From: Flavobacterium resistens
Lineage (GTDB): Bacteria > Bacteroidota > Bacteroidia > Flavobacteriales > Flavobacteriaceae
Reading direction: 5' to 3'
Length of the DNA: 64,000 nucleotides
Assembly (NCBI RefSeq): GCF_900182645.1
Contig: NZ_FXTA01000002.1
Span: forward strand, 558,001-622,000
The notes beneath the pieces are model-generated. The model saw only the letters and a program-made list of their open reading frames with translations. It had not been told where the DNA came from and ran no database searches. Positions 56,771 through 64,000 of the stretch are shown here, piece after piece. The position numbers and the translations under genes are program-made. Numbering within the stretch: position 1 is the first letter of the stretch; the number at the start of each line of letters is the position of its first letter.

Positions 56771-58021
56771 TTACAATCCAAATGCAGCTTTAACTTGGTC
56801 AACAAAATCAAGTTTTTCCCATGTAAACAATTCAACAGTAACTGTTTTTTCATTTCCACCTGGAGCAGAGAAAGTTTTAGTAACCGTTTCTGGTTTACGT
56901 CCCATGTGTCCGTAAGCAGCAGTTTCGCTATAAATTGGGTTTCTTAATTTCAAACGTTGCTCGATAAAATAAGGACGCATATCAAAGATAGCTTCTACTT
57001 TTTTAGCGATTTCACCGTTAGTTAAGTTTACTTTAGAAGTTCCGTAAGTTTCAATGAAAATACCCATTGGCTCAGCAACTCCAATAGCGTAAGAAACCTG
57101 AACTAAGATTTCATCAGCAACACCTGCAGCAACTAAGTTTTTAGCGATATGACGCGTTGCATAAGCAGCACTTCTATCTACTTTACTTGGATCTTTTCCA
57201 GAGAATGCACCACCACCGTGAGCACCTTTTCCACCGTAAGTATCAACAATGATTTTTCTTCCTGTTAAACCAGTATCTCCGTGAGGTCCTCCAATAACGA
57301 ATTTCCCTGTTGGATTAATATGGTAGTTGATTTTATCGTTGAATAAATGCGCGTGTTCTGGGTTTTTAGCGATAATTCTAGGAATAAGAATTTCGATAAT
57401 ATCTTTTTTGATTTTAGCTAACATTGTAGCTTCTTCATCAAAATCATCATGTTGAGTTGAGATAACAATCGCATCAATACGAGTTGGTTTGTTATCGTCG
57501 CTGTATTCTAAAGTTACCTGAGATTTAGCATCTGGACGTAAGTACGTGATTTCTTTGTTTTCGCGTCTTAAAATAGCTAACTCTTGTAATAATTTGTGAG
57601 ATAAATCAAGTGCCAATGGCATGAAGTTTTCCGTTTCGTTTGTAGCGTAACCAAACATCATTCCCTGATCTCCTGCACCTTGTTCTTCTGGCTTAGCTCT
57701 GTCAACACCTTGATTAATGTCTGCAGACTGCTCGTGAATTGCTGAAAGAATTCCACAAGAATTCGCTTCAAACATATATTCACTTTTAGTATATCCAATT
57801 TTACGGATTACCTCACGTGCAATTTGCTGAACATCAAGATAAGTATTCGATTTTACTTCACCTGCTAAAATAACCTGACCTGTTGTAACTAATGTTTCAC
57901 AAGCTACTTTTGAATCAGCGTCAAATGCCAAAAAGTTGTCAATTAATGCATCCGAAATTTGATCTGCAACTTTGTCTGGATGCCCTTCACTAACAGATTC
58001 TGACGTAAATAAATAAGCCAT
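56771..58021 (-). CDS. metK: S-adenosylmethionine synthetase
   Basis: 416 residues. It makes SAM from methionine and ATP. Signatures: [36 protein letters not shown], the ATP-binding [17 protein letters not shown] and the flexible-loop lysines in [13 protein letters not shown]. It stands divergent to the receptor and metY genes of the methionine locus. Its own promoter (58194-58223) leaves a long, strongly folded leader (58022-58187). Confidence 0.98.
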
Positions 58022-58187
58022 AATAATGTATTAAATTAAAATTAAGCGAGGAAAATAATTGCTAAAAAGGGCTAAAGGAGAGTTTCTGCTTTAGCATTTT
58101 TTACTGCCGAAATTAATCTCCCGGCACTCATAACGAACCATTTCATTATGAAGAGGTTGCAATCAGTTCAAATTTTTCCTCTGTATT
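58022..58187 (-). promoter_or_regulatory. Structured metK leader, candidate SAM-responsive RNA
   Basis: On the metK strand the leader contains AGAGG...CCTCT (P1) enclosing a loop with ATTTGAACTGATTGCAA, a hairpin CATAA/TTATG whose loop GGTTC can pair with GAAC of the first loop, a second helix TGCCG/CGGCA whose loop GGAGA is complementary to TCTCC in the loop of a third helix (GCTAAAG/CTTTAGC), followed by a T-rich stretch. The first part resembles, from memory, the SAM-II aptamer (stem, AUUU-AAC loop, UUGCAA before the 3' strand); class is not settled. Confidence 0.5.
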
Positions 58188-58367: not shown

Positions 58368-58436
58368 ATGAAATTAACAGTTTGCAATATGATGTCTTGT
58401 ATGATGCCGGAACTTTCCGCAGAGACTCTGTTGTAA
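58368..58436 (+). CDS. Met/Cys-rich attenuator leader peptide (22 aa)
   Basis: A 22-codon ORF reading MKLTVCNMMSCMM followed by PELSAETLL and TAA. Five Met (codons 1, 8, 9, 12, 13) and two Cys (6, 11), against the few percent expected. It has the A-rich upstream region typical of Flavobacterium starts, follows a plausible promoter by about 20 bases and is followed 24 bases later by a strong intrinsic terminator. The last codons (58416-58424) are complementary to the terminator 5' arm (58464-58472) at 8 of 9 positions. This is the layout of a trp-type attenuator; too short for most gene finders. Confidence 0.8.
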   Translation: MKLTVCNMMSCMMPELSAETLL

Positions 58437-58459
58437 TTTTTTTTCAAAAATAGATATAG

Positions 58460-58490
58460 AAACCTCTGCAGATCGCAGAGGTTTTTTTTT
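58460..58490 (+). terminator. Attenuator terminator before the TonB receptor
   Basis: AAACCTCTGC (58460-58469) pairs perfectly with GCAGAGGTTT (58475-58484), loop AGATC, then T-run to 58490. It lies between the leader peptide and the receptor gene, so it must be bypassed to express the receptor. Confidence 0.88.
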
Positions 58491-58553: not shown

Positions 58554-61400
58554 ATGAAAAAAAATGTACTAGCCTTTTTAAGTATCTTGACATTTTCAGG
58601 AATTTATGCACAGGAAAATAAAACTGAGCAGGATACGCTAAAAAATAATGAATTATCAGAAGTTACGATAGTAGGATCAAGAAGTAAAAACAGAGTAAAA
58701 ACCGATGTTCCGGTTCCTGTTGATGTTTTTAGTATTACTGAAATTACAAAAGGAGCGCCGCAAACGAGCGTAACTCAAATTTTAAATTATGTTGCCCCTT
58801 CATTTACCAGTAATCCTACATCAACGGCAGATGCAACAGATCACGTTGATCCGGCTCAGTTAAGAGGATTGGGACCAGATCAGGTTTTGATTTTAGTGAA
58901 CGGAAAACGAAGACATACAAGTGCTTTGGTAAATATAAATGGTTCGCCGGGAAGAGGTTCTGTTGGTACAGATTTAAATGCAATTCCGTCTTTCGCCATT
59001 GACCGAATCGAAGTTTTAAGAGATGGAGCAGCAGCGCAATATGGTTCTGATGCAATTGCGGGAGTAATTAATATTGTCCTTAAAAAGAATGCTAATTTTA
59101 TTTCAGGGGGAATCCAATATGGAGCCAACTTATCATCTGGATCTAATGATTTTAAAGGAGGAGCCGATGGACAAACATTACAAGTTGACTTAAACTACGG
59201 AACCTCATTAGGAAAACCTGGAAGTTTCCTGAATGTTACAGCAAGTGCCGTAACTAGAGAAGCAACAAGCAGAGCCGGAATTAGAAGTAATGCTATTTTT
59301 AACGCTTACAATGCAGTTGAAAATAGAGCTGCGCAAGCTGGTGTTCAAATCAACTCATTATTCAGTAATATTAACTCAACTCCAAATTCGGCACAAATTT
59401 TAAGTTCTTTAAAACAATATGCACCACAAGTAAGTTATTTTACAGCTGCACAGCAAAATGCGATTGCGGGCGCAACAACAATTACACAAATGCAGACAGC
59501 GCTGAATTTTGATGTAACCAATAATGAACTTCAATACAGAGGTCAGCAGAGAAGCGACTATAATATGAGTGTGGGACAGTCAGAATTGGCATCGGGTCAA
59601 GCTTATTATAACGCAAAATATCCTTTGACAGAAACAACTTCTCTGTATTCTTTTGGGGGAATATCATATAGAAACGGGAAATCGTATGCTTTCAACAGAC
59701 TTCCAAATGGTTCAGGAACTTTTACTCAGGTGTATCAAAACGGATTTCTGCCAGAAATTGAGTCAAAGATTTTAGATGCTTCTGCTGCCGTTGGAGTGAA
59801 TGCAGAATTATTCGGATTTGATACTGATTTAAGTACAAACCTCGGAACAAATTCTTTTCAATATGATGTAAACAATACAATCAATGCGACTTTGGGAACC
59901 AATTCTCCTTTTAGTTTTGATGCAGGAAAAGTTTCATTTTTGCAAAGTACAACCAATTTAGATTTTACCAGAAAGTATGATGTTCTTGCTGGTTTGAATG
60001 TTGCTTTCGGAGGGGAATTTAGATATGAAAATTATCAAATAAAACAAGGAGAAGAAGCTTCTTATGGATTGTATGACGTAAATGGAGCTTTGGTTTCGGG
60101 AATTCTGCCAAGTAATTCGCCATTAATTGTTACCGACTTTTTTGGAAACAAACGTGGAGCAGGAGCACAGGGATTTTCAGGATTTCAGCCTTCAGATGCG
60201 AAAGAAAAAAATAGAAATAGTGGCGCGGCATATCTTGATTTAGAATTAAATGTAACCGAAAAATGGTTAGTAAACGGAGCTTTGCGTTATGAAAATTATT
60301 CTGATTTTGGAAGTACAACTATCTTCAAATTAGCTTCTCTTTTAAAGTTGAATGAAAACATTAACTGGAGAATTTCTGGACAAACAGGTTTTAGAGCACC
60401 ATCATTACAGCAAAAATATTTTGAATCAAGCTCAACTCAATTTATAAATGGATCGCCATATCAGGTGGGTTATTTTACAAATGATTCAGAAGCGGCAAAA
60501 AGTATTGGTGTTGAAAATTTAAAGCCTGAAAAATCAAAAAGCATTAGTACAGGATTTACATTTAAAATTCCTGAAGCAAATATAACAATTGCAACAGATG
60601 CTTATTTTACCAGAATCGATGACAGAATTGTATTGACTGGCCAATATTCAAGACCAACAGATGCGCAGATTGCTGCAGCTACAAGTCCCGAACAAGCCGA
60701 AGCATTGACTTTATTCCAACAGGCATTTGACACAAAAGGAGTGGAAAGAGCGTCATTTTGGACGAACGGAATCAACTCTGAAACAAAAGGAATTGATTTG
60801 GTAATTTCTCAGAAATATGATGTTATCCCAGATTTTATTATCAGAAATGATTTGGCTTTAAGCTACAATGAAACGAAAAGAGTTGGCGATTTAAATGTAC
60901 CACAATCTATTATTGATGCAGGTGGCGAACCTTATAAATATTCGTTTTTTCCAGAGTCAAGTCGCGTGTATTTAGAAGAAGCAATTCCGAGATTGAAAGC
61001 TAATTTAATGACAACTTTCAGTATTAAGAAACTGGACATTTATTTAAGAAACAGCTATTTTGGAAAAGTGACAGATCCAGGGGCAACAGATGTGAATTTA
61101 GATGGATTTTCATCAGTGTATGAGCACCCAGAATACAGCGCAAAATTAGTTACAGATTTATCTTTAGGATATCAAATCAACGAGCATTTTAGAGCAACAA
61201 TTGGGTTTAATAATATAGGAGATGTTTATCCGGACAGAAATAATCCAGCAACTCCGGCCTTTACAAATACAACTCCAACGTTGTCTCCGGCACCAAGTAC
61301 AGATTTGAGCAATGCAAATCAGTTTGCATATTCAAGAGCAGTATCGCAATTTGGATTGAACGGAAGATTTGGTTTTGCACGTTTGAGCTTTAAATTCTAA
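58554..61400 (+). CDS. TonB-dependent receptor of the methionine locus
   Basis: 948 residues. Signal peptide (MKKNVLAFLSILTFSGIYAQ), short spacer with a possible TonB box (LSEVTIVGSR), plug at about 50-175 (VTQILNYVAPSF, LRGLGPDQVLILVNGKRRH, FAIDRIEVLRDGAAAQYGSD, AIAGVINIVLKKN) and a large barrel ending SFKF. It has no carboxypeptidase-like N-terminal domain. Its expression appears to depend on a Met/Cys leader attenuator, so I infer uptake of methionine, cysteine, a peptide or another sulfur source. Substrate is not shown by sequence. It is followed by a REP-like inverted repeat. Confidence 0.93.
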   Translation: MKKNVLAFLSILTFSGIYAQENKTEQDTLKNNELSEVTIVGSRSKNRVKTDVPVPVDVFSITEITKGAPQTSVTQILNYVAPSFTSNPTSTADATDHVDPAQLRGLGPDQVLILVNGKRRHTSALVNINGSPGRGSVGTDLNAIPSFAIDRIEVLRDGAAAQYGSDAIAGVINIVLKKNANFISGGIQYGANLSSGSNDFKGGADGQTLQVDLNYGTSLGKPGSFLNVTASAVTREATSRAGIRSNAIFNAYNAVENRAAQAGVQINSLFSNINSTPNSAQILSSLKQYAPQVSYFTAAQQNAIAGATTITQMQTALNFDVTNNELQYRGQQRSDYNMSVGQSELASGQAYYNAKYPLTETTSLYSFGGISYRNGKSYAFNRLPNGSGTFTQVYQNGFLPEIESKILDASAAVGVNAELFGFDTDLSTNLGTNSFQYDVNNTINATLGTNSPFSFDAGKVSFLQSTTNLDFTRKYDVLAGLNVAFGGEFRYENYQIKQGEEASYGLYDVNGALVSGILPSNSPLIVTDFFGNKRGAGAQGFSGFQPSDAKEKNRNSGAAYLDLELNVTEKWLVNGALRYENYSDFGSTTIFKLASLLKLNENINWRISGQTGFRAPSLQQKYFESSSTQFINGSPYQVGYFTNDSEAAKSIGVENLKPEKSKSISTGFTFKIPEANITIATDAYFTRIDDRIVLTGQYSRPTDAQIAAATSPEQAEALTLFQQAFDTKGVERASFWTNGINSETKGIDLVISQKYDVIPDFIIRNDLALSYNETKRVGDLNVPQSIIDAGGEPYKYSFFPESSRVYLEEAIPRLKANLMTTFSIKKLDIYLRNSYFGKVTDPGATDVNLDGFSSVYEHPEYSAKLVTDLSLGYQINEHFRATIGFNNIGDVYPDRNNPATPAFTNTTPTLSPAPSTDLSNANQFAYSRAVSQFGLNGRFGFARLSFKF

Positions 61401-61595: not shown

Positions 61596-61627
61596 TTTGG
61601 CTGTTAAATAAATAAATATTACATTTA
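61596..61627 (+). promoter_or_regulatory. Promoter of the metY leader unit
   Basis: TTTGGCTG at 61596-61603 (-33 region) and TACATTTA at 61620-61627 (-7, one mismatch), 20 bases apart. The predicted start is near 61633, about 48 bases before the leader ORF. The -33 box is identical to that of the first leader. Confidence 0.55.
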
Positions 61628-61680
61628 CTCTATCGAATTAGTCGAGTTTAAAAAAGAAACAATTCAATTATTAAATATAA

Positions 61681-61761
61681 ATGAAAACAATAGCAAATAA
61701 TATGGTGATGTGTTGTCAGATGATGCAAATGTGCATCCCAATTTGTTGTTGCCAAAAGTAA
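61681..61761 (+). CDS. Met/Cys-rich attenuator leader peptide (26 aa)
   Basis: A 26-codon ORF: MKTIANNMVMCCQMM, then QMCIPICCCQK and TAA. Six Met (codons 1, 8, 10, 14, 15, 17) and six Cys (11, 12, 18, 22, 23, 24), together 46% of all codons. It is followed 28 bases later by an intrinsic terminator. The last codons (61748-61758, including TGC CAA AAG) can pair with the terminator 5' arm (61797-61807) over 11 continuous positions, two of them G-U. Ribosomes stalled at Met codons would leave this segment free, allowing the antiterminator; ribosomes reaching the stop codon would cover it. It precedes metY. Confidence 0.85.
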   Translation: MKTIANNMVMCCQMMQMCIPICCCQK

Positions 61762-61789
61762 AAGTTAAATCTTGGTTTTAGTTAGAACT

Positions 61790-61826
61790 AAAAGCCCTTT
61801 TGGTAGCCATCCGAAAGGGCTTTTTT
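61790..61826 (+). terminator. Attenuator terminator upstream of metY
   Basis: AAAAGCCCTTTTGG (61790-61803) pairs with CCGAAAGGGCTTTT (61811-61824), 14 pairs with one T-G, loop TAGCCAT, then T-run. An alternative small hairpin (61776-61782 with 61787-61793) overlaps its base. Confidence 0.88.
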
Positions 61827-61852: not shown

Positions 61853-62038
61853 ATGAAAACACTAAATTCAATCGCGATAGAGTATTTATTGAGAAACGAT
61901 TCTCAAAAAAACAATAATAAATCAGAAGACATAACTAGAGAAGTTATACGAATAAATGCAGAGCAGAAGATAAAAGCTCAAAGATCATTATTATTCCAAA
62001 TGTATGATCTCGAAGAACAAGAAAGCTTTTTTGTTTAA
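61853..62038 (+). CDS. Small hypothetical protein upstream of metY
   Basis: 61 residues, predicted mostly helical and charged: MKTLNSIAIEYLLRN, then QKNNNKSEDITREVIRINAE and a C-terminal QMYDLEEQESFFV. It starts 27 bases after the attenuator terminator and ends 78 bases before metY, so it belongs to the same regulated transcript. I do not recognise a family. Good coding character and a typical A-rich start region argue that it is real. Confidence 0.7.
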   Translation: MKTLNSIAIEYLLRNDSQKNNNKSEDITREVIRINAEQKIKAQRSLLFQMYDLEEQESFFV

Positions 62039-62116: not shown

Positions 62117-63421
62117 ATGAGTACACAAAAATTTGCAACAAACGCACTACATGCAGGACACGATGTTACTAAAAATGCAGGAACAAGAGCAGTGCCTATT
62201 TATCAAACGTCATCATATGTATTTAATAATGCTGATCATGCGGCCAACTTATTTGGTCTTGCTGAAGCCGGATTTATTTACACAAGATTAAATAATCCAA
62301 CAAATGATGTTTTAGAACAACGGCTTGCAGCGCTCGAAGGCGGAATTGGAGCTGTAGTTACGGCATCTGGAGCATCGGCAATTTCAACAACTTTGCTTAC
62401 TTTGCTAAGAGCGGGCGATCATATCGTAGCTTCAAACAGTTTATACGGTGGAACTTATAACTTATTAAGTGTAACATTACCGCGATTAGGAATTACAACG
62501 ACTTTTGTAGATCCTTCAAAACCAGAAAACTTCACTAAAGCAGCGAAAGAAAATACCAGAGCTTTCTTTGTAGAATCATTAGGAAATCCAAAATTAGATG
62601 TATTGGATCTAAAAGGAATTTCGGCGGAAGCCAAAGCATTCAAAGTGCCTTTTATAGTAGATAATACAGTTGCGACACCTTATTTATTAAACCCTATTAA
62701 ATATGGTGCCGATATTGTAATTCATTCCTTAACAAAATATATTGCCGGAAACGGAACGTCATTAGGAGGCGCTATTATTGACGCCGGAAGTTTTGACTGG
62801 TCTAACGGAAAATTCCCTGAATTTACAGAGCCTTCTGCAGGATATCACGGATTAGTTTATCACGAAGCTTTAGGAAATGCAGCTTTTATTGCAAAAGCAC
62901 GAATTGAAGGTTTGCGTGATTTTGGCGCAGCTTTGAGTCCGTTTAATGCTTTTCAGATTATTCAGGGATTAGAAACTTTGCCAATCCGAATTAAAAAACA
63001 CAGCGAAAATGCTTTGGCCTTGGCTGAATGGCTTGAAAAACAAGATGAGGTGGTTTGGGTAAATTATCCAGGTTTGAAATCGAATAAATATTATGATTTA
63101 GCGAAGGAATATCTTCCTGCGGGACAAAGTGGTATTATCACTTTTGGATTAAAAGGAGGTTTTGATGCGGCGAAAAAAGTGGTTGACGAAACGAAGTTGT
63201 TCTCATTATTAGCCAATATTGGTGATACAAAATCATTGATTATACATCCAGCAAGCACAACACACCAACAATTGTCTGAAGAAGATCAATTGGCAACAGG
63301 TGTTTCTAAAGATTTAGTCCGACTTTCTGTTGGAATCGAGGATATTGAAGATTTAATCGCCGATTTAAAAGCGGTTTTTGAAAGCGTGACATTAGCGCAA
63401 TACAGTATCAATAAAAATTAG
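62117..63421 (+). CDS. metY: O-acetylhomoserine sulfhydrylase
   Basis: 434 residues, standard for the MetY (Cys/Met metabolism PLP enzyme) group. PLP lysine is in HSLTKYIAGNG; other motifs are YTRLNNPTNDVLEQRLAALE, ASGASAISTTLLTLL and FVESLGNPKLDVLDL. It makes homocysteine from O-acetylhomoserine and sulfide. MetY rather than a cystathionine enzyme is favoured by length and by the following homoserine dehydrogenase gene. Preceded by a Met/Cys leader attenuator and a 61-residue ORF. Confidence 0.95.
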   Translation: MSTQKFATNALHAGHDVTKNAGTRAVPIYQTSSYVFNNADHAANLFGLAEAGFIYTRLNNPTNDVLEQRLAALEGGIGAVVTASGASAISTTLLTLLRAGDHIVASNSLYGGTYNLLSVTLPRLGITTTFVDPSKPENFTKAAKENTRAFFVESLGNPKLDVLDLKGISAEAKAFKVPFIVDNTVATPYLLNPIKYGADIVIHSLTKYIAGNGTSLGGAIIDAGSFDWSNGKFPEFTEPSAGYHGLVYHEALGNAAFIAKARIEGLRDFGAALSPFNAFQIIQGLETLPIRIKKHSENALALAEWLEKQDEVVWVNYPGLKSNKYYDLAKEYLPAGQSGIITFGLKGGFDAAKKVVDETKLFSLLANIGDTKSLIIHPASTTHQQLSEEDQLATGVSKDLVRLSVGIEDIEDLIADLKAVFESVTLAQYSINKN

Positions 63422-63486: not shown

Positions 63487-63614
63487 TGAAAAAAAACTAT
63501 AAATAAAAAATGAAACCATATAAGGTATATAAGTAAATAGAAGTAATGTATTAAGGTATATGCTGAAATGAACTTATATACTTATATGGTTAAATATTTA
63601 AAATGCGAGAAATT

Positions 63615-64000
63615 ATGTCAAAGCTTAAAATAAATATTATTCTTTTTGGGATTGGAAATATCGGAAGCACACTGATCAATCAGATTATTGAAAGTCAGGA
63701 ATTTTTTCTTCAAAGCAAAAATGTCGATTTTCATTTCCCGATAATAACGAATTCAACAGTTGCTTTTTTCGAGAAAGAAGGCGTGGGTTATTCATGGGAA
63801 ACCAATTTCAGAGAATTAGCCGTGCCTTTCAGAGTGGAAGATATTATAGCGTTTGCAAAAGAAAATGAATTCGAAAATTTAATAGCCGTTGATGCTACTG
63901 CAAGCGACGAACTAATAAGTCATTACAATACATTGATCGAAAACGGATTTAATATTGTTGCGGTAAATAAGAAAGCCAATACGCTCCCAATAGATCTTTA
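63615..64000 (+). CDS. Homoserine dehydrogenase, N-terminal part (cut by window edge)
   Basis: About 128 codons are visible from the ATG at 63615 (an in-frame ATG at 63603 is possible). The Rossmann motif FGIGNIGSTLINQI is at 9-22 and DATASDELI, then VAVNKKANTLP, matches the NAD(P)-dependent homoserine dehydrogenase core. No aspartokinase domain precedes it, so this is a separate, probably methionine-branch enzyme, supplying homoserine for acetylation and MetY. It continues beyond the window. Confidence 0.88.
   Translation, partial: MSKLKINIILFGIGNIGSTLINQIIESQEFFLQSKNVDFHFPIITNSTVAFFEKEGVGYSWETNFRELAVPFRVEDIIAFAKENEFENLIAVDATASDELISHYNTLIENGFNIVAVNKKANTLPIDL

Follow-up and report, generated by a model that had tools for sequence, protein, structure and literature searches.

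The metY gene of Flavobacterium resistens is preceded by a short ORF rich in Met and Cys codons and by an intrinsic terminator, which raises the question of whether sulfur amino acid supply controls this gene through a translated leader. The window analyzed here is the whole stretch of DNA containing this locus, 64,000 nucleotides in length. Our results indicate that it very likely holds two transcription attenuators, leader B at 61681-61826 and leader A at 58368-58490, which act through the ribosome and belong to a sulfur-amino-acid regulon; translation, ribosome stalling, read-through and the effect of supply are inferred. The supporting evidence comes from anatomy, conservation, covariation, codon positions, gene context, and a correlation between codon content and pathway; there are no expression, ribosome-profiling, or read-through data. 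The features concerned are as follows.

56771-58021, minus strand: metK, 3' of the SAM-II riboswitch
58081-58187, minus strand: SAM-II riboswitch before metK (49.3 bits, gathering score 44)
58368-58436, plus strand: leader A ORF, 22 codons, MKLTVCNMMSCMMPELSAETLL
58408-58419, plus strand: hairpin P1 (CGGAA CT TTCCG), abutting the leader A antiterminator with one base in common
58419-58424, plus strand: 5' strand of the leader A antiterminator, GCAGAG (from alignment, covariation, and fold probability)
58460-58490, plus strand: terminator A, AAACCTCTGC-AGATC-GCAGAGGTTT and a T run (373 of 375 cells paired)
58554-61400, plus strand: TonB-dependent receptor gene, 948 aa, 3' of leader A
61596-61627, plus strand: promoter-like TTTG ... 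TACATTTA, Bacteroidota -33/-7 type with one mismatch (sequence only)
61681-61761, plus strand: leader B ORF, 26 codons, MKTIANNMVMCCQMMQMCIPICCCQK
61722-61737, plus strand: small hairpin GATGCAAATGTGCATC over the last Met codons of leader B, status uncertain
61748-61758, plus strand: 5' strand of the leader B antiterminator, codons 23-26
61790-61826, plus strand: intrinsic terminator B with T run (stem 61790-61824, 14 pairs)
61797-61807, plus strand: 3' strand of the leader B antiterminator, coinciding with the terminator's upper 5' arm and loop
61853-62038, plus strand: 61-aa ORF, first gene past terminator B, a small protein with C-terminus SLLFQMYDLEEQESFFV
62117-63421, plus strand: metY, O-acetylhomoserine sulfhydrylase (TIGR01326, 644 bits, cut-off 495)
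63603-63998, plus strand: start of a homoserine dehydrogenase gene (PF03447), continuing beyond the window

Leader B contains 6 Met codons, the start included, and 6 Cys codons. Eleven of its 25 non-start codons (44%) code for Met or Cys, the top value in the window. A census of both strands of the 64-kb window gave 380 ATG ORFs of 15-45 aa, of which just 2 reached 25% Met+Cys, namely leader B and the ORF at 58368-58436 (29%). Among 15200 ORFs in 25 simulated 64-kb sequences drawn from a dinucleotide model, 22 reached 25% and none reached 44%. Leader B is singled out by composition alone; leader A is not, and rests on conservation. The stem of terminator B begins 28 bases past the leader B stop codon, and 61748-61758 can pair with 61797-61807 through 11 continuous pairs, 9 Watson-Crick and 2 G-U (-14.5 kcal/mol for the 11-pair helix of identical sequence in locus L007). 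The original prediction, made from sequence alone, had described this ORF, its codon counts, the terminator, and an 11-position alternative pairing, all of which held, exact to the base. The consensus behind the promoter-like motif is the -33/-7 promoter of Bacteroidota, and -7/-33 elements are mentioned in PMC6847099. From this motif a start of the leader B transcript at about 61634-61640 may be inferred. A conserved hairpin over the Met codons of leader B was also sought but could not be established, as the signal in the 53 distinct leaders fell short of significance (mean z -0.64, with 5 of 53 below 0.05).

Leader A, before the TonB-receptor gene, is very likely a second, different Met/Cys leader attenuator, as inferred from its conservation. 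The original prediction had overlooked it, together with the tandem arrangement in relatives described below. Its match to model R1 (E 5.7e-14) is not independent evidence, leader A being among the sequences from which R1 was built. Hairpin P1 is a regular part of this element: a stem of at least 4 pairs occurs at its place in 50 of 53 aligned leaders A, and in only 29 and 7 of 53 when its end is shifted by one or two bases, respectively. P1 is probably not a classical protector hairpin, since it abuts the antiterminator and overlaps it by one base only. A CTATTG-like block lies near the leader A stop codon, just 3' of the antiterminator, in 47 of 53 rows (G at -10 in 35 of the 47), and stands 13-15 nt past P1 in 45 of 53. 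P1 and this block could together be an RNA polymerase pause signal, an inference that is merely suggestive.

The next enzyme gene after leader B had been predicted to be metY, which held, but the 61-aa ORF intervenes and had been missed; a Pfam scan of this ORF gave no match. Its C-terminus resembles that of 65-69 aa ORFs found upstream of metX, and the pattern SLLFxMY..E...F[IV] is common to the 61-69 aa proteins of the window (61853-62038) and of L354:8167, L360:9042, and L345:8275. These small proteins are the first genes past the leader attenuators at both metY and metX. The metY gene of the window is 99% identical to those of Flavobacterium sp. ASV13, LHD-80, and 245. The TonB-dependent receptor lies between metK and metY, and its ligand is unknown; the import of a sulfur compound is a possible role, by inference only. 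The SAM-II riboswitch before metK is a neighboring control of the methionine pathway and no part of the attenuators.

The conservation of the leaders was assessed at metY loci of relatives. The metY search covered 121 genomes of the genus and 199 of the family, and upstream DNA was collected for the close relatives found (about 71% identity or more). Of the 137 metY-upstream loci so obtained, 69 belong to the genus; the 68 others come from 68 of the 135 other-genus genomes in which metY was matched at 1e-120. At the metY locus, about 50 of the 121 genomes of the genus were left out, having only distant metY homologues. Locus L037, without a metY start, was excluded. Within about 900 nt, 66 of the 69 genus loci have one or more Met/Cys leaders with a terminator behind; by the same ORF criterion, so do 9 of the 68 loci outside the genus. 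The richness in Met and Cys is kept and the peptide sequence is not, as seen from MKTIANNMVMCCQMMQMCIPICCCQK in the window, MNVIAKNMMMSCMMMRTMCCIDISYYHKRKT in L047, and MTLLTNTMMMVMMMSMMMLPPPRCQKSKS in L072. In the best 80 of 541 metY matches, the named Flavobacterium loci, model R2 found leader B in 80 of 80, and R1 found leader A upstream of metY in all 79 long enough to hold it. These are close relatives (metY 87-99% identical), and R1 and R2 were built from genomes of the same genus, perhaps partly of the same species.

Leader A relatives were also searched beyond the metY locus. At E <= 1e-6, R1 matched 140 of 199 genomes within the genus and 12 of 119 from other genera of the family; at 1e-5 it matched 19 of 196 genomes of the order (18 in the genus) and 7 of 247 of the class (5 in the genus, 2 chance-like). 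Matches at E <= 0.01 occurred in 99 of 120 family genomes and were largely noise, so the counts use 1e-5 or 1e-6. The sole match in the order outside the genus belongs to another family (G418), where MIQIQKNMCCMCMCRNYTEAYYAL stands before a DUF2061-like ORF and a PAPS-reductase gene. Four R1 matches were rejected: G000:C2:856251 (E 8.9e-6) and the weak G000:C2:1105428 are ordinary terminators behind genes, and L250 and L251, from other class members, are without a Met/Cys leader.

The mutually exclusive antiterminator is backed by covariation in both leaders, with relatedness uncorrected. Identical-sequence rows were removed before the pairing analyses. L123 was excluded from the set A alignment as spurious (52 of 53 kept), and adding the window's own leader A gave 53 rows; L123 is still counted in the N=53 of the leader A duplex-energy tests. 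For leader B, 548 of 624 cells across 58 aligned loci were paired in the antiterminator, a value reached by none of 2000 row permutations (best 529), and 6 pairs changed on both sides. The clearest case links column 93 in leader B with column 167 in the terminator loop (G-U 37, U-A 8, A-U 7, and G-C 5 in the 58 loci); as the loop base is outside the terminator stem, the stem cannot explain this covariation. Terminator B itself had 691 of 695 cells paired and 8 pairs with double changes. In the main class of leader A (43 rows), 262 of 289 antiterminator cells were paired, again unmatched in 2000 permutations (best 257), with 2 doubly changed pairs; sliding the partners by 1-3 columns left 31-51% paired. 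At one leader A position, a change in the leader is accompanied by changes in both the 5' arm and the 3' arm. Ten rows with a shifted register (L038, L039, L050-L053, L065-L067, L070), counted apart, had merely 36 of 48 cells paired.

The duplex energies gave a similar picture for the sets as wholes. The cognate duplex averaged -12.3 kcal/mol both for A (n=53) and for B (n=58), against -9.6 and -11.0 kcal/mol with non-cognate partners and -7.8 and -7.6 kcal/mol with shuffled leaders, respectively, and the cognate mean was reached by 0 of 20000 permutations in either set. Taken singly, no more than 35 of the 53 loci in A and 34 of the 58 in B beat 95% of their own shuffles. The permutation and rank tests on pairing ignore relatedness. 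A fold of the leader A alignment found the terminator alone; leader B was not covered by it. The original prediction would have been refuted by leader codons not conserved between species or by the absence of compensatory substitutions. It passed on both counts, as the leaders are Met/Cys-rich in 66 of 69 genus loci though residues shift, and compensatory substitutions are present in both pairings.

The positions of the Met and Cys codons fit the geometry of a stalled ribosome, for which the known size of the ribosome footprint was used. The antiterminator lies mostly within 25 nt before the stop codon; in L038, L039, L050-L052, and L064 it starts at or after the stop codon, as read from the alignment. 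At least 2 Met/Cys codons stand 14 nt or more upstream of the antiterminator in all 58 leaders B, where there are in fact always at least 3, and in 50 of 52 leaders A (minimum 0). When only Met/Cys codons at least 12 nt away are counted, the nearest one stands at a distance of 13-16 nt in 42 of 52 leaders A and in 40 of 58 leaders B. The calculation itself thus fixes the lower limit of this distance, and dense runs of Met/Cys codons bias it toward small values. By inference, a ribosome stalled at the upstream Met/Cys codons should free the antiterminator, and one at the stop codon should cover it.

The proposed mechanism would then run as follows. With plentiful charged Met-tRNA, and in many leaders Cys-tRNA too, the ribosome would reach the stop codon and cover the antiterminator strand, the terminator would form, and metY or the TonB gene would remain untranscribed. 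Under Met or Cys shortage, the ribosome would stall at Met/Cys codons, at least some 14 nt short of the antiterminator; left free, that strand would pair with the terminator at its loop and upper 5' arm, and RNA polymerase would read through. The Met/Cys codon mix would set which shortage each operon answers. The attenuator reading with Met/Cys sensing for metY, as originally predicted, is supported by the comparative evidence, and its response to supply remains inferred.

One part of that prediction fared less well. Stalling at Cys codons 22-24 of leader B had been proposed to mask the antiterminator, leading to different Met and Cys responses. The geometry is plausible, but these codons need no sensing role. 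As sensors they were rejected, because they fall within the antiterminator region and differ from species to species (CYCQK, YYQKRKT, RCCQK, and SRHGRK in this region). RNA pairing accounts for their retention better than Cys sensing does, and they are probably no sensors. Methionine is apparently the main signal for the metY leader: in some species (L071, L072, L075, L076) the leaders are Met-only up to the antiterminator. That the leader responds to supply is inferred.

The genes that follow leader A relatives include metY, a metX-like gene with thrA, hom, TonB genes, cysH-cysD, serine acetyltransferase with cysteine synthase, and, at one locus, metH. A further target is a PF01053-type enzyme, nearest to cystathionine beta-lyase and below the cut-off of that family. 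The survey rests on 40 hand-picked R1 matches, mostly second copies, and therefore gives targets, not frequencies. In the counted zone, leaders before cysteine genes had a mean of 3.29 Cys codons (n=14) and those before methionine genes 1.46 (n=80; Mann-Whitney p = 7e-8, relatedness uncorrected). The Cys-minus-Met count was higher in the cysteine-gene leader in 9 of 9 genomes having both kinds. The extremes are a metH leader, MTKTRLNMAMMMMWRNSAEVAIA, without Cys, and the leader before serine acetyltransferase-cysteine synthase in L396, MKFTCCNKCACMGIISAGVCCCI. This correlation drew on matches of a model built from metY leaders, 40 of them hand-chosen.

Some leaders weaken the pathway pattern. 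Only one Met and one Cys are present in the counted zone in, for instance, L380, L388, and L399, before a 65-69 aa ORF and metX, and in L371, L376, and L398, before hom; it is possible that these are weak or sense something else. L371, L376, L398, and L400 are leader A relatives with Tyr, Phe, and Thr and only one or two Met and Cys codons, and they may sense another amino acid. In L371, L376, and L400 an unidentified ORF of about 150 aa precedes hom; this ORF is not clear in L398.

In many relatives the two attenuators stand in series. The order before metY is leader A, terminator A, leader B, terminator B in L034, L043, and L071, and the same series was found in L078, L080, L081, L105, and L124. 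Both A and B occur in the stretch examined at 35 of the 137 metY-upstream loci, and in 29 of the 137 the B start codon is at most 90 nt from the end of terminator A. Such pairs are probably on one transcript, because 90 nt or less is too short for a separate promoter in most cases. Among the 79 named loci, A is beside B in 28 (41-306 nt between model matches) and about 3.6-3.9 kb upstream of metY in 51, which is the TonB-leader spacing of the window; the 51 were assigned by position, and the TonB gene was not confirmed in each. A promoter-like motif is present in the A-B gap at 16 of the 28 side-by-side loci, so B may also have its own start there, and the idea that adjacent A and B are always on one transcript was rejected.

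Leader pairs are not confined to metY. At metX, matches to R1 and R2, both at E <= 1e-6, were found in 6 of 80 loci (L344, L345, L353, L354, L358, L360), in the order leader pair, 65-69 aa ORF (read in L345, L354, and L360), SAM-I riboswitch, metX. In the genome of the window, metX-thrA-metZ stands behind a B-like leader, MQNFFKIKVKSQMNKSLQMNKMFNVARICVRVC, a small ORF, and SAM-I; thrA is above its NCBIfam cut-off, and the metX and metZ matches are below theirs. This third Met/Cys leader, with a terminator, the small ORF, and SAM-I following it in series before metX, lies about 1 kb past the end of the window (L205:1012-1764, G000:C2).

In other Flavobacteriaceae, the place of the leader before metY is often taken by the SAM-I riboswitch (S-box, RF00162). 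An Rfam scan of 40 metY-upstream loci, hand-chosen from the 137 and mostly without a strong leader, found 23 with SAM-I and no leader, 15 with a leader and no SAM-I, and 2 with neither; one of the 15, L060, has a weak terminator and is outside sets A and B. SAM-I is likewise absent before metY in the window and in 6 further named leader loci, where it stands only before metX. SAM-I is known to report methionine status through SAM. The exchange of the two elements at one position makes methionine status most likely their common signal. SAM-I differs from the leaders in being an aptamer RNA without an ORF, and before metX it is present 3' of them. Within the window, Rfam 15 gave no match at gathering score over 61681-61826 and 58368-58490: no T-box matched, the best hits at the leaders were at chance level only (Phe_leader 27.9 bits, gathering 55, and similar), and neither SAM-I nor SAM-II occurs at the attenuator sites, SAM-II being found solely at 58081-58187 on the other strand.

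Folding without a ribosome allows a bolder reading. As long as the 3' arm of the terminator has yet to be made, 31 of 52 leaders A and 40 of 58 leaders B favored the antiterminator, with a probability above 0.5; the identical calculation gave 0.0 for trpL and 0.39 for thrL of E. coli. The value for the window's leader B was 0.859. The window's leader A is an exception: here the antiterminator pairs with the arm at only 0.315, in competition with local upstream pairing at 0.646. It is possible, as the model predicts and as has not been shown, that an untranslated leader reads through. In the bolder reading, regulon-wide Met/Cys attenuators, often two in series per transcript, form a graded multi-input sulfur gate without a trp-type protector. 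Loss of initiator fMet-tRNA would then lead to read-through rather than super-termination, which would suit a methionine sensor, and the serial pair together with the codon mix would allow shortages of Met and of Cys to be weighed against each other, operon by operon. We advance this tentatively, as it is clearly more likely to fail than to hold.

Three other explanations were considered. The first holds that the Met/Cys-rich peptide itself is a metal-binding (copper, zinc) or redox-sensing micropeptide through which the metal, by altering translation of the peptide, controls the TonB receptor or metY; copper-sensing upstream ORFs are known and serve as its model. The M/C-rich sequence with CC and CCC and the TonB-dependent receptor gene 3' of leader A are in its favor. 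Against it, only Met/Cys richness is conserved and not the peptide sequence, and the presence of Cys-free sensing zones (L072, L395) or of Cys-rich versions goes with the pathway to which the next gene belongs. What is conserved at the ORF ends is RNA pairing, and the antiterminator is not crossed in a constant frame (L038, L064). We regard it as very unlikely. An uncharacterized riboswitch or protein-binding RNA, with the ORF incidental, is very improbable as well. SAM-I does occupy this place in many relatives, but Rfam gives chance-level matches only, the conserved part is a short ORF, terminator, and antiterminator with no obvious aptamer-like core, and the leader A alignment folds into the terminator alone. 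Finally, that terminator B merely ends upstream TonB transcripts and the ORF is a chance sequence is all but excluded: terminator B is downstream of the TonB gene on the same strand, but it lies 390 bases past the TonB stop codon and after a promoter-like motif, the leader B element is also kept where leader A directly precedes it, and its composition was unmatched in the 15200 simulated ORFs.

The two-attenuator reading can be compared with known systems. As in the trp/his/thr attenuators (E. coli trpL, thrL), a short ORF is rich in end-product codons, a terminator precedes the first gene, the antiterminator uses the terminator 5' arm, and the stall codons lie half a ribosome's length upstream. 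The leaders described here differ in combining Met and Cys codons, in the two adjoining attenuators at many loci, in lacking a Shine-Dalgarno sequence, which is a trait of the phylum and is reported for F. johnsoniae (PMC6847099), and in that no 1:2 protector hairpin has been demonstrated (for B, not significant across 53 distinct leaders). In mycobacteria, polycysteine leaderless short ORFs attenuate downstream genes according to cysteine supply (Canestrari et al. 2020, via PMC9031893). These share Cys codons of an upstream ORF responsive to cysteine supply and differ in being leaderless, in having Cys only, and in that no terminator/antiterminator pair is described (PMC9031893).

Within the phylum, Bacteroides has short ORFs reminiscent of leader peptides (PMC7366714). 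In F. psychrophilum, of the same bacterial family, there are clues of leader-peptide attenuation before amino-acid operons, and the pheA and hisG elements are among those conserved in other genera (PMC9723704). The original prediction that no example had been described in this phylum was thus not quite right. The main text of PMC9723704 contains no occurrence of 'methionine' or 'metY' and mentions no leader of the Met or Cys kind; its supplement was not covered and may list metY or cysH leaders. Searches of the open-access literature turned up no account of leader attenuators of the Met or Met/Cys type in Bacteroidota.

The leaders offer a specific and testable mechanism of Met/Cys control for bacteria of a phylum in which translation is initiated without Shine-Dalgarno sequences. 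Sensing methionine with a leader peptide is awkward because initiation also needs methionine, and this system would show a solution. With metY under SAM-I in sister genera, two solutions to one problem can be compared at one locus, and the serial attenuators permit a direct test of how two ribosome-dependent gates combine. A tandem A and B was also seen in L212 (G220), upstream of a BtuC/FecCD-type ABC transporter (vitamin B12 or iron) from which it is separated by an unknown 120-aa ORF. In addition, a single sulfur gene cluster carries SAM-I, SAM-II, and leader-peptide controls together.
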